A stretch of 18,289 nucleotides of DNA from Planctomycetota bacterium (GTDB taxonomy: Bacteria > Planctomycetota > MHYJ01 > JACQXL01 > JACQZI01): the NCBI GenBank assembly GCA_016207825.1, contig JACQZI010000016.1:1-18289 (forward strand). The letters are read 5' to 3'. Shown one piece after another: positions 7,276 through 17,597 of this stretch. Every line of letters starts with the position of its first letter. The stretch's first letter is position 1. The notes beneath the pieces were generated by a model. That model searched no databases. It saw nothing but the letters and a program-made list of their open reading frames with translations, and had not been told where the DNA came from. A program made the translations under genes and the position numbers.

Positions 7276-7308
7276 TAAAAACCCCCATGTACCACATAGG
7301 GTACATGG
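7276..7308 (-). terminator. terminator of the redox operon
   Basis: ccatgtacc (7285-7293) / ggtacatgg (7300-7308) forms a perfect 9-bp stem with a 6-nt loop. Read on the minus strand it is followed by gggttttt, giving a classical intrinsic terminator 7 nt after the stop of the operon's last gene. Confidence 0.75.
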
Positions 7309-7314
7309 TTAAAA

Positions 7315-8898
7315 TTAAGACTTAATTATCTTTTCGGCTTCGGCTTTATCGACATCCATGACATAAGTAATGCCGCTGATTTCTGTTGCTTCGCGCGTTA
7401 AGGACATAATATCATCGCGGGAGATATTATCCAGCGTGAATTTCCTGCAACCGGCCATCAACTGGCGCAGGCCCTGTGCCAGCCTTTCATAATAGGTGTA
7501 AAGGCCGATGGCGCCAGCGGGCATCTTCTCGAATTCCGCATCACCCAGTTCTTTGCGCAGGTTAGCGGCCGTCACGAAGATTTCATCTTTGCTTGAGCCG
7601 AACCTTTCCACATAAACCGGCAGCTGCTGCTCATCAATCGCCCGGCCGATATTCTTGCCTACCATCGCCGCGGCTATCGGAGCGCGTGCCATGCCGATCA
7701 TCTTGACAAACGGGGCTCCCATAGCCAGCCCCTTGAAAATCTGGTCTTCAAAGCTAAAGCCGCCGTTTACGGCAATCGCCGGGAGATATGCTTTCTTTTC
7801 AGCCAGCATCTTGGCATACTTATAAACGAGCGAGTGCAGCTCAACCGGTGGAACGCCCCATTCATTCATCATCTTCCACGGGCTCATTCCGGTGCCGCCG
7901 CCTGCCGCGTCCACGGTCAGGAGGTCGATTTTATATTTGGAGGCGAATTTCATGGCCAGAGCCAGTGCGGCCGGGCGATAAGCGCCGGTCTTCAGGAAGA
8001 TATACTTGGCGCCTGCCTTACGCAACTCTTCCACGCGCTGGGCAAAACCTTCTTCGGAAACCATGCCGACCCTTGAATGGCGCTCGAATTCCTTAAAGGC
8101 GCCTTTATCATACGCCCGGATGACGTTCGGATCTTTCGGGTTGGGCAACACGACATAACCACGCTCGTAGAGCATCTGGGCCTTCTTCAAATCCCGGATT
8201 TTCACTTCGCCGCCGATATTCTTCGCGCCCTGCCCCCACTTTAGCTCCACGCAGGTCACGCCGAGCTTTTCAATGGCGTATTCCTGGACGCCCAAACGTC
8301 CGTCTTCGACATTCGCCTGGACAATAATGGCACCGTAACCGTCACGCTGGCTATCCGTATAAAGTTTTACCCGGCGTTTTAAATCCACGGTATCCATGAC
8401 GCGCCCGTTCTTTATGACGGACTGCGGGTCCATGCCGACGACGTTTTCGCCGATGGTCAGGGGTGTGCCGGAAATAGCCGAGCCGATTGCTAAACCTTCC
8501 CAGTTATTCTTGGCGATATCGGTCGAGCCGATGCCGGAAATCACCCACGGATATTTAAATTTTAGACCTTTATCATGGCCGATGGCCAGCTCAAGCTTGA
8601 CGTTCGGGAAAATCGCCTTGTCGCTATCCGCTTCGATTCCCTGCGCGCCGATGACGCCGCTGATGATATTAAAGTGGGAATAATCTACCGGATATGATTT
8701 TTCCCCGGCCGAAGTGATGACGCCAAAGGGCTGCGGATAGATGACTTCATGCCCCCGGTAGGCGGATTTACCGATTTCGCACATGCCGATGCACCCGTCC
8801 ACGCATGTTACGCACATGCCGGATGCCGGGATGACCGAGCCTTCGGTCCTGTTTTTGGTCAGGGTGGCCGCTGTTGCATTCGTCTTAGAAAGTGACAT
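7315..8898 (-). CDS. FMN-binding glutamate synthase-like protein (GltB domain without glutaminase)
   Basis: This 527-aa protein is the FMN-barrel domain of the glutamate synthase large-subunit family. Recognisable parts are GIGSTDIAKNNWEGLAIGSA, VELKWGQGAK, DAAGGGTGMSP, the phosphate-loop-like AVNGGFSFEDQIFKGLAMGA, and PAGAIGLYTYYERLAQGLRQ. There is no N-terminal amidotransferase domain, so it cannot take ammonia from glutamine by itself. The Cys residues that hold the 3Fe-4S cluster in classical GltB are absent after AMGAPFVKMIGMARAP. Instead an N-terminal Cys cluster (C29-x2-C32-x3-C36-x3-C40) could bind Fe-S. A textbook RBS (aggaggagg) precedes the ATG. It is the last gene of the operon, 14 nt after the Fe-S subunit. 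It is probably the substrate-reducing subunit; glutamate synthesis is possible but unproven. Confidence 0.85.
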   Translation of the reverse strand: MSLSKTNATAATLTKNRTEGSVIPASGMCVTCVDGCIGMCEIGKSAYRGHEVIYPQPFGVITSAGEKSYPVDYSHFNIISGVIGAQGIEADSDKAIFPNVKLELAIGHDKGLKFKYPWVISGIGSTDIAKNNWEGLAIGSAISGTPLTIGENVVGMDPQSVIKNGRVMDTVDLKRRVKLYTDSQRDGYGAIIVQANVEDGRLGVQEYAIEKLGVTCVELKWGQGAKNIGGEVKIRDLKKAQMLYERGYVVLPNPKDPNVIRAYDKGAFKEFERHSRVGMVSEEGFAQRVEELRKAGAKYIFLKTGAYRPAALALAMKFASKYKIDLLTVDAAGGGTGMSPWKMMNEWGVPPVELHSLVYKYAKMLAEKKAYLPAIAVNGGFSFEDQIFKGLAMGAPFVKMIGMARAPIAAAMVGKNIGRAIDEQQLPVYVERFGSSKDEIFVTAANLRKELGDAEFEKMPAGAIGLYTYYERLAQGLRQLMAGCRKFTLDNISRDDIMSLTREATEISGITYVMDVDKAEAEKIIKS

Positions 8899-8912: not shown

Positions 8913-9590
8913 TTAATCTTTCTTTATTTCACAAGCCACACAAGGTGACATATAACACATCATATCATCAAACTTTTCCTTTTCCAGACAGGGCGGTTCC
9001 AGATTGGCGCATCCGCCGCAAATCGCTTTATCCGGCTGGTTATAAGTGCACCTGAGCTGGCAGGCCGGACAAACATACATGCATCCTCCGCACAGGCGGC
9101 AGACTTCAGATTTGATATTAAATGGCGTATTGATAGTCCGCTTATTGCCGCGCCCGTTAAACCCAATTGCCTGCGCCGCCATCTGCTCCTTACACATCCG
9201 GACGCACAGCCCGCAGAGTATGCAGGTTTCGTGTTCCTGCTTGAACCTTTGCTGGCGCACGCCGTAAGAAGAAGCCAAATCCTGAATCTGTTTGGATTGC
9301 GGGCAGGAACCGAGCAGGAGTTCGATGACTATCCGCCTGGCTTTAATCACCCTTTCCGAAGCGGTACGGACTTTCAAGCCTTCCTCAACCGGATAGGTGC
9401 ATGAAGAAACGAGTTTGGCTCTCGGCCCTTCCCCGATTTCCACCACGCACAGGCGGCAGGTACCGTAAGGAGAAAGCCCATCCATATAGCAAAGCGTGGG
9501 GATAGGAAACCCCAGGAACCTGGCGGCTTCCAATATGGTAGTCCCATTTTCCACCTGGACAGCAACGTTGTTAATTTTTAAGTTAATCAT
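8913..9590 (-). CDS. HoxU/NuoG-N-like electron-transfer Fe-S protein
   Basis: This 225-aa protein resembles the N-terminal Fe-S part of NuoG, HoxU or Fe-hydrogenases. An N-terminal [2Fe-2S] ferredoxin domain uses C34, C45, C48 and C64 (LCYMDGLSPYGTCRLCVVEI). A double [4Fe-4S] domain follows: C123-x2-C126-x2-C129-x3-C133 and C164-x2-C167-x2-C170-x3-C174. The His-Cys3 cluster region of NuoG is not conserved. An additional Cys-rich tail (C177, C181, C191, C194, C201, C212, C217, C220) is unusual and may bind a further cluster or zinc. Its ATG overlaps the stop of the preceding flavoprotein gene (ATGA), implying translational coupling and a tight complex. It probably wires the NuoF-type site to the GltB-like subunit. 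Confidence 0.88.
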   Translation of the reverse strand: MINLKINNVAVQVENGTTILEAARFLGFPIPTLCYMDGLSPYGTCRLCVVEIGEGPRAKLVSSCTYPVEEGLKVRTASERVIKARRIVIELLLGSCPQSKQIQDLASSYGVRQQRFKQEHETCILCGLCVRMCKEQMAAQAIGFNGRGNKRTINTPFNIKSEVCRLCGGCMYVCPACQLRCTYNQPDKAICGGCANLEPPCLEKEKFDDMMCYMSPCVACEIKKD

Positions 9591-12500
9591 ATATCAGAAC
9601 TCACTAATTCTTTCTCTTTATTAGGTTTAGTATCATCATTTTTCTTTACCAGCTCCAATTCGCACCTCAAGCAGCGCCGGGCTTCCTTGACCGCTTCCTC
9701 TTTGGTCAGGACGCAATCCACTTCCTTAAAGCTGCCCTGGCGCTCCTTTACCGGAATGACCGGAACTTTGGCGCGCTTGGCGGTAAGCATTTCTTCTTCT
9801 GATATTTCAACCGCATCGATATATATCGAGGGACGGGTCAGTTTATATTCCCTTGCCACCGGCTTTTTCTGGAGATACTGGTCAATTGATTCGGCCGCAA
9901 CCTTGCCGGCCGCCATCGCTTCGATAACTGTGCTCGGTCCGGTGACCGCGTCGCCTCCCGCAAAGACGCCTTCTTCATCGGTCGCCATTGTTTCCGGATT
10001 AACCGTGATGGTCTTGTTTTTGGAAACCAACCTCTTTAACGAAGGCGTATCCATAAATGATGGGTCGGCTTCTTCACCAACCGCGACCAGTAGCGTATCC
10101 ACCGGAATCTTAACTTCGGAATTGGGAAGCGGAATGGGTTTCCGGCGGCCACTTTCATCAAAATCGCCCAACTGCATCTTGGAACATTCCAACTCAACTA
10201 GCTTGTTATTTCTCGTGATAATACGCACCGGGGCGGTCAGCAATAATATTTTAATGCCCTCTTCCAGGGCACTCTCGATTTCCTCTTTCAAAGCCGGCAT
10301 TTCGGCCTTGGTGCGCCGGTAAATGATGGTTACATCCGCGTTCAAGCGGGCCGCCGTGCGCGCCGCGTCAATCGCGGCATTGCCGCCGCCGATAACCCCG
10401 ACATTTTTCCCGATATTGGACTTGATGCTCAGATTGACTTCTCTTAGGAAATCTAGCGCATCAAGCACGCCTTCGGCGGTTTCGCCGTTAATTCCCAAAT
10501 GCTTCCCTTTATGGGTTCCGGTCGCGATAAATATCGCGTTGAAACCTTCCTTTTTCAGGCTGTCTATCGTAATATCTTTTCCTAAACGGCAGTTGGTCTT
10601 TATGGTCACGCCTAATTTCTTGATAGACTCAATATCCCGGTTAAGGATATCTTTCGGCAGCCTGTATGACGGGATGCTGACGGCCAACATTCCACCTGCT
10701 ACGGGTAGCGCTTCGAAAACCGTCACGCCGTAGCCTTTAATCGCCAGCGCCCATGCCGCGGCCAGTCCGGCCGGACCGGAGCCGATAACCGCCACCTTCT
10801 CCTTCTTCTGTGCAGCGGTTTTTGGCTTGTAATTATATTTTTCCTTATAACCGTTATCAACGGCAAAACGTTTTAAGGCGCGGATGGCAACGGCCTCGCC
10901 CGCGTCGCCGGCACGGCATTTTATCTCGCAAGGATGCGAGCAAACCCGGCCGCAAACGCTGGGCAAAGGATTATCCTTCATCACGATATCATAGGCCTCT
11001 TTGAAACGCCCGTGAGCAATCAAGGCCGTATAAACCGAGGCCTCGGTACCGATGGGACAGATATGCTGGCACGGGGACGAAACCAGTTCCTTGCAGACCC
11101 CGGCCTGGCATCTCTTTTTGGTAATGTGATTTTCATATTCGCTCTGGAAATAACGCAGGGTGCTTAATACGGGATTAGCCGCTGTCTGTCCCAGGCCGCA
11201 CATGGTCGTATCCTTGACCACCTGCGCCAGTTCCTTTATCAAATCTATCTGTGAAAGCTTGCTCTGCCCTTTGGTGATATCCGTAACTATTTCCAGCATC
11301 CTCTGGATACCTTTGCGGCAGGTATAGCATTTGCCGCATGATTCATCCAAAAGGAACGTGAGGAAATATTTGGAGATGTCCACCATGCAGGTATTTTCAT
11401 CCATGACAATCATGCCGCCCGAGCCCATGATAGAGCCGACCTCGGCAAGCTTTTCATAATCCACGGGCAGGTTAAGCATATTATTCGGGATGCATCCGCC
11501 TGAAGGACCGCCGGTCTGGACGGCTTTAAACTGCCGTCCCTTGGGAATGCCGCCGCCGATATCGAAAATAATCTGGCCCAAGCTCGTCCCCATCGGGATT
11601 TCCACGAGTCCCGTATTGTTTATCTTTCCGACCAAAGAGAAAATCTTGGTGCCCTTGCTCTTTTCCGTGCCGATAGCGGCAAACCAATCGGCGCCCTTGT
11701 TAATGATAATGGGAACGTTCGCCCAAGTTTCGACGTTATTAATATTAGTGGGTTTCCCCCAAAGCCCTTTCTGCGCCGGGAAAGGCGGCCTCTGGTGCGG
11801 TTCGCCGCGCTTGCCTTCGATGGATGCAATCAAGGCGGTTTCTTCCCCGCAGACAAATGCGCCTGCCCCACGGTTTATCTGGGCATCAAAGCTGAAATTA
11901 CTCCCTAGAATATTCTCGCCCAGCAATCCGTATTTGCGGGCCTGTTCGAGGGCGATTCCGACATTCTGGACGGCCAGCGGATATTCGCTGCGCACATAGA
12001 AAAATCCTTTTGACGAACCGATAGCGAAAGCCCCTATAAGCATGCCTTCCAAAACAGAATGCGGATTTCCTTCCAAGACGCTCCTGTCCATATAGGCGCC
12101 CGGATCGCCTTCGTCTCCGTTACATATAATGTATTTGACGTCGCCTTTTGATTTGCGGCATAAATCCCATTTAAGGCCGGTCGGGAATCCGGCGCCACCG
12201 CGCCCGCGCAGTCCGGATTTCCTCACTTCCTCTATCACCTTTTCAGGGGATGATGAAGAAAGGACCTTTGCCAGGGCCGAATAACCACCGATGGCAATGT
12301 AATCCTCAATGCTCGTCGGATCGATTACGCCGTTATTACCCAGAATCAATCTCTGCTGGCGGTTATAAAACGGCACGTCTTTTTCGTAAGTCACTTTCTT
12401 GCCTGTCGAGGGGTCGACATAAAGCAGGCGTTCTATGACCTTTTTATTAGCGATTGTCTCGGAAACGATTTCTTCGATATCCTCAACTTTTATATTCTGA

Positions 12501-12766
12501 TAAAATATTCCTTCCGGCTTAATCACACTGATCGGGCCTTTCTCGCAAAAGCCGTGGCAGCCGGTCATCTTGACCTTGACTTTTTTCTCGAGCTTGTGGA
12601 AAGCGATAGCCTTGTTAAAAACATCCACCACGTTTTCCGCTCCCCAAGCACGGCAGCCGGTACCCGCACAAATGGTACTATATGTAATATCATATTCCCT
12701 TTGTCCGGCCAGTTTTAACCTTAATTCATCAAGCGCTTTGAAGTTTTTTATCTTTGTCATATTCAT
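9587..12766 (-). CDS. fused HydB/NuoF-type and GltD-type flavoprotein
   Basis: The protein is 1059 aa in one frame. A thioredoxin-like [2Fe-2S] domain (about 25-115; C33, C38, C70, C74) comes first. A NuoF domain (about 140-540) follows with GLRGRGGAGFPTGLKW, CNGDEGDPGAYMDRS, CGEETALIASIEG, an SLBB region, and the [4Fe-4S] site C477/C480/C483/C523. The N-terminal domain is typical of HydB/HndC rather than respiratory NuoF. A complete GltD-like half begins at about 553: CxxxxC-type Fe-S ligands (C566, C570, C605, C609, C613, C617), FAD site GSGPAG (662-667), second dinucleotide site GGGNAAIDAARTA (793-805) with YRR, and VFAGGDAVTGPS. One chain could thus carry FMN plus FAD and two nicotinamide sites. 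It overlaps the NuoE-like gene by 38 bp and the next gene by ATGA. The start could also be 12760. Confidence 0.92.
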   Translation of the reverse strand: MNMTKIKNFKALDELRLKLAGQREYDITYSTICAGTGCRAWGAENVVDVFNKAIAFHKLEKKVKVKMTGCHGFCEKGPISVIKPEGIFYQNIKVEDIEEIVSETIANKKVIERLLYVDPSTGKKVTYEKDVPFYNRQQRLILGNNGVIDPTSIEDYIAIGGYSALAKVLSSSSPEKVIEEVRKSGLRGRGGAGFPTGLKWDLCRKSKGDVKYIICNGDEGDPGAYMDRSVLEGNPHSVLEGMLIGAFAIGSSKGFFYVRSEYPLAVQNVGIALEQARKYGLLGENILGSNFSFDAQINRGAGAFVCGEETALIASIEGKRGEPHQRPPFPAQKGLWGKPTNINNVETWANVPIIINKGADWFAAIGTEKSKGTKIFSLVGKINNTGLVEIPMGTSLGQIIFDIGGGIPKGRQFKAVQTGGPSGGCIPNNMLNLPVDYEKLAEVGSIMGSGGMIVMDENTCMVDISKYFLTFLLDESCGKCYTCRKGIQRMLEIVTDITKGQSKLSQIDLIKELAQVVKDTTMCGLGQTAANPVLSTLRYFQSEYENHITKKRCQAGVCKELVSSPCQHICPIGTEASVYTALIAHGRFKEAYDIVMKDNPLPSVCGRVCSHPCEIKCRAGDAGEAVAIRALKRFAVDNGYKEKYNYKPKTAAQKKEKVAVIGSGPAGLAAAWALAIKGYGVTVFEALPVAGGMLAVSIPSYRLPKDILNRDIESIKKLGVTIKTNCRLGKDITIDSLKKEGFNAIFIATGTHKGKHLGINGETAEGVLDALDFLREVNLSIKSNIGKNVGVIGGGNAAIDAARTAARLNADVTIIYRRTKAEMPALKEEIESALEEGIKILLLTAPVRIITRNNKLVELECSKMQLGDFDESGRRKPIPLPNSEVKIPVDTLLVAVGEEADPSFMDTPSLKRLVSKNKTITVNPETMATDEEGVFAGGDAVTGPSTVIEAMAAGKVAAESIDQYLQKKPVAREYKLTRPSIYIDAVEISEEEMLTAKRAKVPVIPVKERQGSFKEVDCVLTKEEAVKEARRCLRCELELVKKNDDTKPNKEKELVSSDI

Positions 12767-13256
12767 TTCTTTTCTTTATTTGTTTACTCTTTCGCATTTC
12801 TTCTATCAGCAGTTTAACTTTGGATTTAGTGGCATGCCCGTGGTAAACGCCGTCAATCACCACGACCGGACCTAATGCACAGGCGCCCAGACAATTGACT
12901 GTTTCAAGGGTAAACATTTTATCAGGAGTGGTTTCCCCCGGCTCCACACCGAGTATTTTCTGCAATTCATCCACCAGGCGCGGTGCGCCGCGGACGTGGC
13001 AGGCCGTGCCCAGGCATGCGGTGACGATATGCTTGCCCCTGGGCTTAAGGCTGAACGCCTTGAAGAAAGTCGCCACCCCGTAAACATCGGTCAGGGGAAG
13101 CCGCAGCTTTTGGGCGACATCGCGGATGGATTCCTCGGAAAGCCAGTTATTTTCCGACTGGATATCCTGTAACAGCGAAATCAACACATCTTTCCTGCCG
13201 TTATACCTCGCCATCAGTTTTTCAATCAGTTTCCCGTTGGTGTCTTTCGTAGTCAT
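12729..13256 (-). CDS. NuoE/HydC-like [2Fe-2S] subunit
   Basis: This 175-aa thioredoxin-fold [2Fe-2S] protein is of the NuoE (24-kDa complex I) / HydC / HndA type. The four ligands are visible: C81 and C86 (ACLGTACHVRG) and C122 and C126 (NCLGACALGP). An N-terminal helical part is typical of NuoE (LLQDIQSENNWLSEESIRDVAQKL, then VYGVATFFKAF). It pairs with NuoF-type flavoproteins, here encoded next and overlapping by 38 bp. The C-terminal tail is lysine-rich (KSKQIKKRNEYDKDKK) because that stretch also contains the start region of the next gene. The RBS aggggg lies just before the ATG. It is cytosolic and has no membrane segment. Confidence 0.92.
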   Translation of the reverse strand: MTTKDTNGKLIEKLMARYNGRKDVLISLLQDIQSENNWLSEESIRDVAQKLRLPLTDVYGVATFFKAFSLKPRGKHIVTACLGTACHVRGAPRLVDELQKILGVEPGETTPDKMFTLETVNCLGACALGPVVVIDGVYHGHATKSKVKLLIEEMRKSKQIKKRNEYDKDKKLQSA

Positions 13257-13325: not shown

Positions 13326-13601
13326 TTATCTGTATTCTTCGCAATGGCAGATTCCGCCTTCGGGTTGGGGACGGTTGCAGGTCTCGCGGTTTTCGCAATT
13401 CATGCAGAGCCCTTTATACTGGCGTGAATTCTTTTCCATCATTGCATTTGGGTTTGAAGCAAGATTCAGTCCCGAGCCACCGGGAAGACATTCATATTCA
13501 TTGCAGTGTTGCACCGGTTTATCCGTTGAATTATGAAGGGAACACTCCGGGATATTCTTGCAGTTTACACACAAATCTTTACGTTCTGCAGCTTTTGTCA
13601 T
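13326..13601 (-). CDS. small Cys-rich protein with a duplicated LCxNC motif
   Basis: I do not recognise this 91-aa protein. It has ten cysteines: 11, 14, 20, 33, 38, 66, 69, 75, 85 and 87. They form two copies of one motif: LC-x-NC-x5-C ... HCNEY (residues 10-36) and LC-x-NC-x5-C ... HCEEY (65-90). The copies are joined by a linker of about 25 residues. This arrangement suggests two small metal-binding knuckles (Zn or Fe-S). The start at 13601 is fixed by a textbook RBS (aaggagg, 13617-13611). A longer in-frame extension to 13694 has no RBS and lies in the structured leader. It is the first gene after the σ54 promoter and 69 nt before the NuoE-like gene. It may be an assembly factor or small subunit of the complex; that is inference. 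Confidence 0.75.
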   Translation of the reverse strand: MTKAAERKDLCVNCKNIPECSLHNSTDKPVQHCNEYECLPGGSGLNLASNPNAMMEKNSRQYKGLCMNCENRETCNRPQPEGGICHCEEYR

Positions 13602-13610
13602 ATATAGTAG

Positions 13611-13617
13611 CCTCCTT
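13611..13617 (-). promoter_or_regulatory. ribosome binding site deciding the start of the Cys-rich gene
   Basis: The minus strand reads aaggagg about 9 nt before the ATG at 13601, while the alternative start at 13694 has nothing similar. Confidence 0.8.
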
Positions 13618-13672
13618 TTCTTTATTAAGGGACATTGGTGGCTACGCTTTTTCCATAACTGGAAATTCAGCC

Positions 13673-13782
13673 GCACGCTTCTTTCCTTACTCACTCCGCG
13701 GAGTTCTCCCGGAGAGAGCGAAGGTTCTGATGGGTCTTCGCTCTCCCCTAGAAAGGAGATTTGGGAATTCAGCGTAGCGTGC
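13673..13782 (-). promoter_or_regulatory. structured leader of the σ54-dependent operon
   Basis: The operon has a leader of about 200 nt. Nested complementary segments enclose it: gcacgct (13673-13679) / agcgtgc (13776-13782), ctttc (13681-13685) / gaaag (13751-13755), and a perfect 10-bp hairpin gagagcgaag (13714-13723) / cttcgctctc (13736-13745) with a 12-nt loop. A near-perfect 11-bp direct repeat (ggaaattcagc 13661-13671; gggaattcagc 13763-13773) lies close to its edges. It could be a cis-regulatory RNA or a small inserted palindromic element. No known riboswitch class is recognised. Confidence 0.45.
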
Positions 13783-13808: not shown

Positions 13809-13824
13809 AGCAATTAGCGTGCCA
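13809..13824 (-). promoter_or_regulatory. σ54 (-24/-12) promoter of the redox operon
   Basis: The minus strand reads TGGCACG-ctaa-TTGCT, an exact match to the σ54 consensus with correct GG/GC spacing. The predicted transcription start is near 13798, about 197 nt before the first start codon at 13601. An NtrC-family activator gene lies immediately upstream (13992-15341), which makes this the most likely target promoter of that regulator. Confidence 0.85.
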
Positions 13825-13991: not shown

Positions 13992-15341
13992 TTATTTGGG
14001 CAGCCTGTCGCGCAGTGTTTTCCTGTCAATACCGAGTATTTCAGCGGCTTTGGTTTTATTGCCTCCAACGCTTGACAGGACATTCTTGATGTATTCTGAT
14101 TCCATTTGGGACAATGTCTTGGTGGGCTTTGTTTTAACTGAATCAGAAACATTCAAGGCTGAAAACCTCATCAAGCTCGGCAGATCAGGAACGCCGATGG
14201 CATTACCGTCCGTCATGACCACCATTCTCTGGATTACATTTTCCAATTCCCGGACATTACCCGGCCAGTGATAGTTTTTAAGCACCTGTAAAGCCTCGTC
14301 GGAAAAAGTGGGGACTGTCTTGCCGCTTTCACGGGCGAACTTAGCGATAAAATGGTTTATCAAAAGCAAAATATCATCGTCCCGCTCCCTTAACGGAGGC
14401 AATTCAATCATGATGATATTCAGGCGGTAAAATAAATCCTCCCGGAAGATATTTTTCTTTACCAGCGCCTGCAAATCTTTATTGGTGGAAGAGATTATCC
14501 GGATGTTCACTTTCCTTGACTGGCTGGAGCCTATCATGCAGACTTCTTTTTCCTGAAGGACCCTCAAGAGCTTGACCTGCATGGCCGGGGTGGTCTCGCT
14601 TATTTCATCCAGAAAAATCGAGCCCCCGTCCGCGGTCTGGAAAAATCCGAGGCGCGATTCCGTGGCGCCGGTAAAAGCGCCCTTGACATAACCGAAAAGC
14701 TCGCTCTCCAACAGGGTTTCCGGTATCCCGCCGCAATTTACCGGGATAAACGGGGCTGAGGCTCGTGAACTGCTGTAATGAATCGCCCGGGCAACCAGCT
14801 CCTTGCCCGTCCCGCTTTCCCCGAAAATCAGGACCGTGGCGGTGGTAGACGCGGCCTTGCTGATGGCGCTAAATACTTTTTGCATCGCTTCGGATTCTCC
14901 GATAATACCCTGCGGGGTGCGCGGCGTGCAATGGCCCTGTCCCAGTGCGGTCTTTCTAATGCGCAATTTATCCAGGGTCCGGCGCACGGCCGATGATAAT
15001 TCATCATCCGTAAAAGGCTTGGAAAGGTATTCTTCGGCGCCGGTCTTCATCGCCTCGACCGCGCCGTTAATGGAAGCGTATCCGGTAATCATCATTACCT
15101 CGGTTTCGTGGGAATTTTCCCGGATATGTTTTATCAAATCAAGCCCGTTCGCGCCGGGCATTTTAAGGTCGGTAATCACCAAATCCAGCGGGTTATCTTC
15201 GAAAATGGTTATTGCCTCACGGACGTTCGGTGCGGTAAAAACCTGGTAGCCCTGGCTTGTCAAATTACGGCGCAATAACTCCAGGGTGTCCGGAGCATCA
15301 TCCACCACCAAAATACTTTCTTTTACGACTGCTGTTTCCAT
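13992..15341 (-). CDS. NtrC-family σ54-dependent response regulator
   Basis: This 449-aa protein (start METAVVKES at 15341) has three parts. A receiver domain (about 8-120) has the acidic pair in VVDDAPD, phosphoacceptor Asp58 in VITDLKMPG, Thr in MMITGYAS, and Lys108 in LSKPF. An AAA+ domain (about 145-375) has Walker A GESGTGKE (174-181), the σ54-contact loop GAFTGA (221-226), Walker B GGSIFLDE and WPGNVREL. A Fis-type HTH (about 412-449, GGNKTKAAEILGIDRKTLRDRL) completes it. The intact GAFTGA means it can remodel σ54-RNA polymerase. The ATG is 1 nt past the kinase stop, with gaaggag 12 nt upstream; a start at 15377 inside the kinase frame is less likely. It is encoded next to a consensus σ54 promoter, its probable target. 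Confidence 0.95.
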   Translation of the reverse strand: METAVVKESILVVDDAPDTLELLRRNLTSQGYQVFTAPNVREAITIFEDNPLDLVITDLKMPGANGLDLIKHIRENSHETEVMMITGYASINGAVEAMKTGAEEYLSKPFTDDELSSAVRRTLDKLRIRKTALGQGHCTPRTPQGIIGESEAMQKVFSAISKAASTTATVLIFGESGTGKELVARAIHYSSSRASAPFIPVNCGGIPETLLESELFGYVKGAFTGATESRLGFFQTADGGSIFLDEISETTPAMQVKLLRVLQEKEVCMIGSSQSRKVNIRIISSTNKDLQALVKKNIFREDLFYRLNIIMIELPPLRERDDDILLLINHFIAKFARESGKTVPTFSDEALQVLKNYHWPGNVRELENVIQRMVVMTDGNAIGVPDLPSLMRFSALNVSDSVKTKPTKTLSQMESEYIKNVLSSVGGNKTKAAEILGIDRKTLRDRLPK

Positions 15342-15342
15342 A

Positions 15343-17058
15343 CTACTCTTCGACTCCTTCGGTTGAGGTAAAATCATCTATGGGAAATCTCACTTCAAAG
15401 CAGGCTCCTTTGTCCGGCGCGCTTTTGACATTTATCGAGCCGCCGTGCGCGGCAACAATCCCGTGGACGACCGAAAGCCCCAAACCCGTTCCCTGCCCCA
15501 CTTCCTTAGTGGTAAAAAACGGAATAAAAACCTTTTTAATCGTATCGTCGCTCATACCGACACCGGTATCGGAAACGGTCAGGAGCACGTGCTTGTTGAC
15601 CGCCTCGGTCCGGACGGTCAAAGCGCCGCCTGAAGGCATCGCCTGGATGGCATTCACCACTAAATTGACCAGCACCTGGTGCAGTTGTGAATGGTCGGCG
15701 ACGATATCCGGTATTTCGCTGTCGAATTCGCGGATAAGCTTCACGCCTTCTTTCTGGCAGCGCGATTCCAGGAAATAAAGCCCTTCCTGGACGACCTGAT
15801 TAAGGTTAACACGCGATTTCCTTATCGGCATCTGCCGGGCAAAAAGCATAAGCTTCCTTATCACTTCCCTGGTATGCAAAGACGCCTTGATTATTTTTTC
15901 TATATCCTGCGCGGCCTGCGCGGGCAAGTCCGGACTTTTTGCGGCAAGTTGTGCAAAGCCGAGTATATCGCTCAAGGGCTCGTTTATTTCATGTGCCACA
16001 CCGGCGGAAAGCTGGCCGATGGTGGCTAACCTATCCGCATGGCGCAATTGTTCCTGGAGCCTTATCCGGTCATCTTCGGCATAACGGCGTTCTATCAAAA
16101 GGGCAATCTGGCGCGCAATAGTATCCAAAAGGCTCTGTTCCTCCCTAAGAAAAAGCACCCTTTCTGTTTCGCCCGCCATTTTAGTGTAAACGACTTCAAT
16201 CGTTCCCCGTTTTTCCCCGCGGACGAAAATAGCCGAATAAAGTTTCCGGTCAGTTTCCGCGAAATTCATGGTGGAATATGCCTTGCCGTCAAGCACAATC
16301 CTGCCTGAAGCGGTATCCGGGTATTGGAAGGCCGGCGGCAATAAATTCACGATTCCCTGAAGAATGCCGTCAAGCGAAAGATTAAGCTGGCTGACCAGCC
16401 CGGCAATTCCGTAAAGGCAGGTTAATTCCTTAACACGCTCCCTCAAGGCAGCCTGGGCACGCCGATTGGCGATGGAAACACCCAGTATCTGGCCCACCTG
16501 TTCATATAGTTCTATATCATGCGGCTTAATATGGTCAGAAGGCTTGCATTTTAACTGGAGTATGCCGCGGTTTTTCTCATCTATGATAAACGGAATCATT
16601 GCCATGGATTGGCAATTGTCTTCCAACGATTTTTTATTCTGTTCCCCGCAAACAACTGGCGTTTTCAAATCCTTCCCGGCGTTGCCTGTCCAGAAACTGC
16701 CGTGCTTGGTGAAAAAAGGCAGTGCCGGATTGAAATTACCGCTGAAGAGGTCGTTAAAGAGCTTGTCATCCACGGTGTTTTCCGGGGATTCGTAGACGAA
16801 CTCACCTTTTTTATCCTGGTGGACCGGGAAGGTTTCAAACTTAAAAGATTCTTCCGGATGAAACCGGGCGGCGAAGCGGTAATACATCGGGCCTTCTGTC
16901 ACGCGTAATTCGACCGTGTCGCACGCGGAAAAATTAAGGAGAATCCTGGCTATTCCCTTTAAGAATTCTATGCGTGGAACACCCCTCAAAGCATAGTCTA
17001 AAATCCTGCGTGATAAAGCCCAGAAATCACTAAATTGATGATTCTTGGATTCCTCCAT
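15343..17058 (-). CDS. cytoplasmic GAF-type sensor histidine kinase
   Basis: With the start at 17058 (MEESKNHQ, taagg upstream) this is a 571-aa soluble kinase without membrane segments. An N-terminal GAF-like sensory region (about 15-200, ILDYALRGVPRIEFLKGIAR) is followed by a second GAF-like region (about 205-325) opening with KELTCLYGIAGLV. The HisKA helix carries phospho-His356 (AGVAHEINEPL). The ATPase shows N box NLVVNAIQAM, G1 DTGVGM, and G2 GTGLGLS. It resembles NtrB-type kinases that feed NtrC-family regulators; the cognate regulator begins 1 nt downstream. The cytosolic GAF domains suggest an intracellular redox, metabolite or gas signal; which one is not visible. An in-frame start at 17166 would add a 36-aa stretch with no RBS. 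Confidence 0.93.
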   Translation of the reverse strand: MEESKNHQFSDFWALSRRILDYALRGVPRIEFLKGIARILLNFSACDTVELRVTEGPMYYRFAARFHPEESFKFETFPVHQDKKGEFVYESPENTVDDKLFNDLFSGNFNPALPFFTKHGSFWTGNAGKDLKTPVVCGEQNKKSLEDNCQSMAMIPFIIDEKNRGILQLKCKPSDHIKPHDIELYEQVGQILGVSIANRRAQAALRERVKELTCLYGIAGLVSQLNLSLDGILQGIVNLLPPAFQYPDTASGRIVLDGKAYSTMNFAETDRKLYSAIFVRGEKRGTIEVVYTKMAGETERVLFLREEQSLLDTIARQIALLIERRYAEDDRIRLQEQLRHADRLATIGQLSAGVAHEINEPLSDILGFAQLAAKSPDLPAQAAQDIEKIIKASLHTREVIRKLMLFARQMPIRKSRVNLNQVVQEGLYFLESRCQKEGVKLIREFDSEIPDIVADHSQLHQVLVNLVVNAIQAMPSGGALTVRTEAVNKHVLLTVSDTGVGMSDDTIKKVFIPFFTTKEVGQGTGLGLSVVHGIVAAHGGSINVKSAPDKGACFEVRFPIDDFTSTEGVEE

Positions 17059-17068
17059 AACCAGCCTT

Positions 17069-17110
17069 ATTGTAACAATAATCGGCAATATGTCAACAAC
17101 AATATGCCGA
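17069..17110 (-). promoter_or_regulatory. possible σ70 promoter and operator before the kinase
   Basis: The minus strand has TTGACA (17096-17091), 16-nt spacer, TACAAT (17074-17069). An inverted repeat tcggca (17082-17087) / tgccga (17105-17110) straddles the -35 box and could be an operator. The predicted start lies only a few bases before the ATG at 17058, so the mRNA would be nearly leaderless or the boxes are fortuitous. Confidence 0.35.
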
Positions 17111-17597
17111 CACGTTTTTGGATAAGCTAACTGATTTGATTGGTTAAAATGAAAGAGAGCAACCAAAAGACCGCCCCATCCTCACTACTCACTACCCACC
17201 TCAAACGTTAGCATCATTCAGGCATCCCACATCTGCAATAAAAACATAATCATGCGTCCCCCGACGGATGTCGGGGGTCCGCGGTAGTGTCGGGATATGC
17301 ATTTACCCCTAACTGACTTTTACCTCAAGGAACAACCGCGGAACGTCCTTGTAAAAGGGCCCGTTCTCCTTGCGTAGTAGAACGGAGTCCCGATTCTCGG
17401 GGACGAAATCCACGTAACTCGCTCCGCCCGAAGTAAAGCGATTTAGCTTTATATCCTCGTTTATTAATTACAAGCAGGCTAATTATCAGAAGTATTTACT
17501 GCGGAAAGAATCATATCAATCTGAATCCTATAAACTTTGGAACGGCTAAAGATTTCGCACCCTACCGGATAAGTAATCTACCCCCTCCCTACCCGTA

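Follow-up and report, generated by a model that had tools for sequence, protein, structure and literature searches.

In sub-type I of the group A3 [FeFe]-hydrogenases of Hydrogenedentota the B3/B4 domain of BfuB is replaced by DPD_II and flavin adenine dinucleotide (FAD)/NAD(P) domains (Zheng & Huang 2024, PMC11406978), and the architecture of a HydB-GltD fusion is already published for such hydrogenases. In StnABC and NfnABC (PMC7483475, PMC10482914; Nfn-Bfu, PMC9304861) a HydBC core is accompanied by a permuted GltD. The GltD of StnC has a lysine at the proximal cluster and a non-bifurcating FAD, whereas NfnB has a glutamate (PMC10482914). Type 2 enzymes of the Bfu family have a BfuA without A3, which passes electrons to an extra subunit, and the third reactions listed for the family include no GltB-type subunit (PMC9304861). 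Here we describe a locus on contig JACQZI010000016.1 (GCA_016207825.1) of a Planctomycetota bacterium. The whole stretch analysed, 18,289 nucleotides and hereafter the window, encodes a fusion of a BfuB/HydB-type NuoF core with GltD, together with NuoE/BfuC-like, HoxU/BfuA-like and GltB-like subunits (Table 1). No bifurcating or Bfu-linked glutamate synthase was found in the literature searched, subscription papers and preprints lying outside that search, nor was any description of a Bfu-type core with a GltB-like third subunit, which is apparently the new part of this system.

The window protein resembles sub-type I BfuB in having a NuoF core with B3/B4 replaced by a DPD_II [4Fe-4S] domain and a C-terminal FAD/NAD(P) domain. 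However, where the hydrogenase has a BfuA carrying the H-cluster, the window has a 225-residue HoxU-like partner followed by the GltB-like gene. With StnABC and NfnABC it shares the HydBC core and a permuted GltD with a C-terminal RCxxC segment and a lysine at the proximal cluster. In Stn, by contrast, GltD is part of the A subunit (StnC), flanked by Fer2 and NuoG, and the ferredoxin tail of the B subunit is retained; in the window GltD replaces that tail, and a GltB-like subunit is present. The combination of BfuC, a BfuB core, a BfuA lacking A3 and A5 and an extra subunit for a third substrate recalls Bfu Type 2, although here the B subunit has no B3/B4 and BfuA has eight extra conserved cysteines. 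As in glutamate synthase, a GltB-family flavin mononucleotide (FMN) barrel and a GltD module occur in one gene set, but the GATase, central and GXGXG domains are missing, the Fe-S motif is different and GltD is fused to a HydB-type protein. On its sequence, the window protein is most aptly called a Bfu-type core whose tail has been swapped; one defining feature of Bfu taken strictly, the B3/B4 domain, is missing from it.

The fusion is encoded by a single uninterrupted frame, as a preliminary description of this DNA had claimed without naming a strand; it lies on the minus strand. Pfam returns the proposed order of thioredoxin-like [2Fe-2S], NuoF and GltD parts, with Fer4_20 and Pyr_redox domains in place of the ferredoxin domain that HydB and HndC carry at that position, also as described. 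The FMN-binding and NuoF 4Fe-4S domains of BfuB are both identified (PF01512, PF10589); the B3/B4 ferredoxin-type domain was not detected by Pfam in the window B subunit, whereas in the same operon 22 complete relatives carry it. Sequence searches place residues 31-563 closest to HydB of bifurcating hydrogenases (PDB code 7t2r chain B, 757 bits) and residues 564-1036 closest to the GltD part of the NfnABC and StnABC A subunits (9bov, 9n5u and 8oh5). A Foldseek search with the AlphaFold2 model of the fusion (predicted local distance difference test score 85.8, predicted template modelling score 0.82) matches HydB of bifurcating enzymes and GltD of the StnC/NfnA type. A frameshift or an assembly join between the NuoF and GltD halves had been named as a possible weakness, but 50 further complete fusions, of 1050-1119 residues, occur in the same operon in relatives, so that neither chance nor a faulty join accounts for the fusion. 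In one genome (G054, L019:3148-6296) the halves of the fusion occupy two overlapping frames of 802 and 530 residues, through an assembly error or a real split.

At least 558 stretches were matched when genome contigs were scanned with the GltB-like alignment, and the best 80 of them were kept. These loci belong to 15 named phyla, with nine unassigned records, and their GltB-like proteins are 75-82% identical. The preliminary description suggested looking for the same domain order together with the three neighbours, and in every locus, as far as its contig extends, the genes run NuoE, B subunit, HoxU-like, GltB-like. The B subunit, visible in 78 loci, takes two forms: NuoF with GltD in 58 and NuoF with the ordinary two-[4Fe-4S] ferredoxin tail in 20, proportions skewed by the choice of the 80 loci that most resemble the window. 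A relative of the same genus (G001) has the same operon but a ferredoxin-tail B subunit. Identity to the window is 95% for its GltB-like and 88% for its HoxU-like protein, as against 57% for the B subunit and 44% for NuoE, a pattern suggestive of in situ replacement of the B/C gene pair.

Mapping the fusion onto a tree of 75 B cores takes 12 changes of state, no fewer than six of which are forced by well-supported branches, and a single clade of all fusions is rejected (approximately unbiased (AU) test, p=1.4e-5). The C-terminal module of the B subunit, ferredoxin tail or GltD, has been exchanged repeatedly. Across 294 genomes of the window's phylum the fusion recurs in clusters for [FeFe]-hydrogenases and once in a formate-dehydrogenase-like cluster. 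A tree of B cores divides the hydrogenase fusions from the B cores of the GltB-type operon with full support. In the best trees the window NuoF core falls outside the main fusion clade and its GltD groups with the formate-dehydrogenase-type fusion; joining the window fusion to the main clade is not rejected (AU p=0.318). At L158:2914-8875 a HydB-GltD fusion, whose GltD is the nearest to that of the window in the tree, lies beside a molybdopterin (formate-dehydrogenase-like) subunit split into two frames.

The cofactor ligands of the fusion are well preserved. In the 75 B subunits those of cluster B1 (C477, C480, C483 and C523), those of B2 (C460, H547, C553 and C558) and those of FMN are invariant, and the GxGxxA and RR motifs are kept in GltD; no loss of flavin or nicotinamide site residues, a further weakness envisaged beforehand, is seen at these positions. 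The B2 histidine is conserved in virtually all BfuB and absent from non-bifurcating homologues (PMC9304861), and the B1 and B2 ligands of the window, this bifurcation-typical histidine included, match those reported there. The B5 ligands are complete in the window and incomplete in most relatives. The GltD module begins no more than eight residues past C558. With C566, C570, C609, C613, C617, C1032 and C1035 present along with GxGxxA and RR, the module could plausibly hold both [4Fe-4S] clusters and bind NADP(H). Alignments place the RCxxC-type segment (C1032/C1035) at the C-terminus, as in StnC, whereas in ordinary GltD it is N-terminal (RCLxC). The proximal-cluster position is occupied by a lysine (K632), corresponding to StnC K170, in 50 of the 51 fusions from GltB-type operons and in every hydrogenase fusion checked; the NfnB-type glutamate is not found in the window protein. 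The GltD FAD is therefore probably a plain, non-bifurcating NADPH port standing in place of ferredoxin rather than a second bifurcating flavin, with the caution that this is a single residue and no proof.

The NuoE-like, HoxU-like and GltB-like neighbours listed in the preliminary description are all found, on the same strand, and the linked operon is conserved in relatives. The NuoE-like gene overlaps the fusion gene by 38 nucleotides, the HoxU-like gene overlaps the fusion stop by four and the GltB-like gene begins 14 past the HoxU-like gene. Four cysteines of the NuoE-like protein are invariant or near-invariant among 66 homologues. It lacks a C-terminal extension of about 110 residues that most relatives have; the extension (e.g. 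L025:3237-4082) carries eight conserved cysteines, is zinc-ribbon-like, has no Pfam match and is absent also from L017, L020, L021 and L061. In the HoxU-like protein alignment shows that the N-terminal [2Fe-2S] and two [4Fe-4S] sites (A1 and A2) are kept and the A3-type ligands lost, the eight further conserved cysteines lying at the C-terminus. The [2Fe-2S] subunit BfuC and the [2Fe-2S] and ferredoxin domains of BfuA are represented in the window. A cysteine-rich open reading frame, the true start of which is probably internal, precedes the NuoE-like gene here and in many relatives, and the stem-loop directly 3' of the GltB-like gene is a likely intrinsic terminator.

The GltB-like protein has an N-terminal CX2CX3CX3C motif, invariant or near-invariant among relatives. 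Only PF01645 passes in Pfam, with neither GATase nor GXGXG domains found, and its best stretch covers profile positions 185-303 of 369 only. The motifs G-E, RxGV, QGAK and GGTGxSP are common to this protein and GltB in a multiple alignment with intermediate homologues, which was used since a profile comparison of the family with canonical GltB, both alignments being shallow, aligned the GGTG region only. In the alignment the GltB [3Fe-4S] cysteine motif is absent and there are insertions relative to GltB.

Table 1. Features of the window and domains of the fusion protein
Feature	Position	Strand	Details
BfuB/HydB-GltD fusion	9587..12766	minus	1059 residues, no internal stop
[2Fe-2S] thioredoxin domain	fusion residues 31-103		Pfam 2Fe-2S_thioredx
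NuoF FMN/NAD(H) part with B1/B2 clusters	fusion residues 181-548		
Complex1_51K	fusion residues 181-352		Pfam PF01512
SLBB	fusion residues 376-424		Pfam PF10531, weak, under its cut-off
NADH_4Fe-4S	fusion residues 464-547		Pfam PF10589
Fer4_20	fusion residues 552-642		Pfam
Pyr_redox_2	fusion residues 657-954		Pfam
GltD-type FAD/NADP(H) module with two [4Fe-4S]	fusion residues 564-1059		
NuoE/BfuC-like subunit	12729..13256	minus	175 residues, thioredoxin-like [2Fe-2S], PF01257 E 6.9e-50
HoxU/BfuA-like subunit	8913..9590	minus	225 residues; Fer2 and Fer4 domains only (Pfam)
GltB-like FMN TIM-barrel subunit	7315..8898	minus	527 residues, PF01645 55.5 bits (cut-off 20.4)
Small cysteine-rich protein	13326..13694	minus	no Pfam family; maximal open reading frame
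Stem-loop then T run	7277..7308	minus	CCATGTACC-CTATGT-GGTACATGG then GGGTTTTT; by eye, no program score
Sigma-54 (-24/-12) promoter match	13809..13824	minus	TGGCACGCTAATTGCT; exact; ahead of operon
NtrC-family sigma-54-dependent response regulator	13992..15377	minus	PF00158, PF00072, PF02954
Cognate sensor histidine kinase	15343..17166	minus	PF00512, PF02518

We propose, with moderate confidence, that the four genes encode one cytoplasmic complex built on a HydBC/BfuBC core, with an NADP(H) port provided by GltD and a third reaction that is most likely of the glutamate type. What the sequences show is the gene order, its conservation, the domains and ligand residues and the swapping of modules; we infer the assembly, cofactor content, substrate, direction and bifurcation of this complex, as well as any ferredoxin coupling in the window version. 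NADH (or NAD+) would react at the FMN of the NuoF half. The [2Fe-2S] and [4Fe-4S] clusters of the HoxU-like subunit would pass electrons to the GltB-like subunit, where the N-terminal CX2CX3CX3C cluster may feed the FMN barrel that handles the third substrate, most likely a 2-oxo acid that is converted reductively into glutamate or a related amino acid. Where the B subunit has the ordinary two-[4Fe-4S] tail, that tail would exchange electrons with ferredoxin. With a StnC-type GltD replacing that tail the low-potential port would become one for NADP(H), the path leading from the B2 cluster through the distal and proximal [4Fe-4S] clusters of GltD to FAD and NADP(H). The downhill step could drive NADH electrons onto ferredoxin or NADP+, or both could just feed the complex.

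Several points weigh against this proposal, the first of which concerns the GltB-like subunit. Besides the missing GATase and GXGXG domains and [3Fe-4S] motif, the best structural matches of its predicted FMN-barrel fold are hydroxy-acid oxidases, namely flavocytochrome b2, glycolate oxidase and lactate oxidase (Z of about 26 to flavocytochrome b2 and relatives, the first 68 residues being poorly modelled), so the substrate could be another acid. The subunit might then be a hydroxy-acid or other FMN-barrel dehydrogenase giving electrons to NAD+ and to ferredoxin or NADP+ in a catabolic bifurcating complex, and altered chemistry is indeed suggested by the insertions and by the missing GltB cluster motif. 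No glutamate synthase chain is present among the 50 structure matches listed, which does not exclude a GltB-type fold, and no sequence relatives were found among solved structures. The fold match does not separate the two possibilities, because the FMN barrel of GltB is broadly similar, while the sequence motifs and PF01645 place the protein with GltB and the recurrent metabolic neighbour is a glutamate dehydrogenase (GDH)-type gene. Such genes lie beside nine of 87 loci, where a rough chance expectation is well under one (554 flanking open reading frames, one or two such genes per genome). We consider the dehydrogenase possible but doubtful. From the PF01645 motifs and the neighbouring GDH genes, glutamate formation is the leading guess for the third reaction.

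A second point is that the host already possesses a GDH and an NfnAB-like pair to cover the same needs. Neither a canonical GltB nor a GXGXG domain was found in the host genome, where a second PF01645 match lies at an IMP dehydrogenase-like open reading frame on C23. The lack of GltB carries little weight, because canonical GltB is scarce in the phylum anyway. The idea that the complex replaces canonical GltB was discarded: by PF01493 counts a full GltB occurs in five of 43 carriers and about nine of 50 non-carriers of the same phylum, which does not discriminate.

The third point is the missing tail, for a HydABC of Syntrophomonas wolfei without B3/B4 is cited in PMC11406978 as not bifurcating. 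The window has lost B3/B4, and its GltD belongs to the StnC type, which does not bifurcate. No ferredoxin is required for reducing a high-potential acceptor, for instance 2-oxoglutarate plus ammonia. The complex might accordingly be a non-bifurcating reductase fed by NAD(P)H, in which NuoF and GltD simply gather electrons from NADH and NADPH for the GltB-like subunit with no energetic coupling. We judge this unlikely: the B2 ligands retain, without variation, the histidine that non-bifurcating homologues lack, and the same operon often has the ferredoxin tail, as in the 20 loci noted above, and a plain NADH reductase would have no use for it. For sub-type I hydrogenases Zheng & Huang postulated that both flavins bifurcate, the GltD FAD as in NfnB and the FMN core as in HydBC. 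Bifurcating NfnB is indeed among the GltD-family relatives, and 50 of 51 fusions retain an arginine (R702) where NfnB has R201, but the same arginine occurs in StnC (R239) and the proximal ligand is the lysine of StnC, not the glutamate of NfnB, making two bifurcating flavins highly improbable here. The preliminary description drew its idea of bifurcation from HydB-type and NfnB (GltD-type) flavoproteins alike; a second bifurcating flavin, hinted at there, has become less likely with the StnC-type lysine, and bifurcation itself keeps the inferential standing it had there. The widest form of our proposal is that an undescribed and widespread branch of bifurcating HydBC-type enzymes makes glutamate or a related amino acid and by this downhill step pushes NADH electrons to ferredoxin or, after repeated module exchange, to NADP+. 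We offer this tentatively, as quite unlikely.

The promoter match ahead of the operon, TGGCACGCTAATTGCT, is the only sigma-54 match without mismatch in the window and is exact also in the same-genus relative; sites matching at least 10 of 11 positions lie upstream of the NuoE-like gene in 28 of 60 loci. A homologue of the NtrC-family regulator adjoins the operon in approximately 42 of 87 loci and one of the histidine kinase in approximately 35. The sensor-like domain of the kinase seems to occur also in a 917-residue protein encoded downstream of the operon (L077:9893-12643), a family found in 11 loci.

Elsewhere in the host, the NfnAB-like pair on C12 consists of an FNR-like and then a GltD-like gene (L116:5732-8043), so another NADPH route is probably available. 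C8 carries another cluster of HydBC type (L023, 8193-14306), which also contains pyruvate:ferredoxin oxidoreductase-like genes; its HydA-like protein is fused to a thiamine pyrophosphate domain (Por-Bfu-like) and its HydB is split into two overlapping frames. Positions 885-2265 of the window, on the minus strand, hold a GatD-like gene (GatD_N and asparaginase domains) in two overlapping frames, possibly by frameshift. GatD is known chiefly from archaea.

If the exchange of modules functions as we read it, the ferredoxin port of a bifurcating core is exchangeable for an NADPH port in an otherwise identical complex, and the low-potential port would be a plug-in part. It is disputed where and how HydBC-type enzymes split electrons, and these operons would then provide natural matched pairs, even within one genus, with which to test it. 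A glutamate-forming third subunit, if that assignment is true, would tie nitrogen assimilation directly to bifurcation in many uncultured bacteria.

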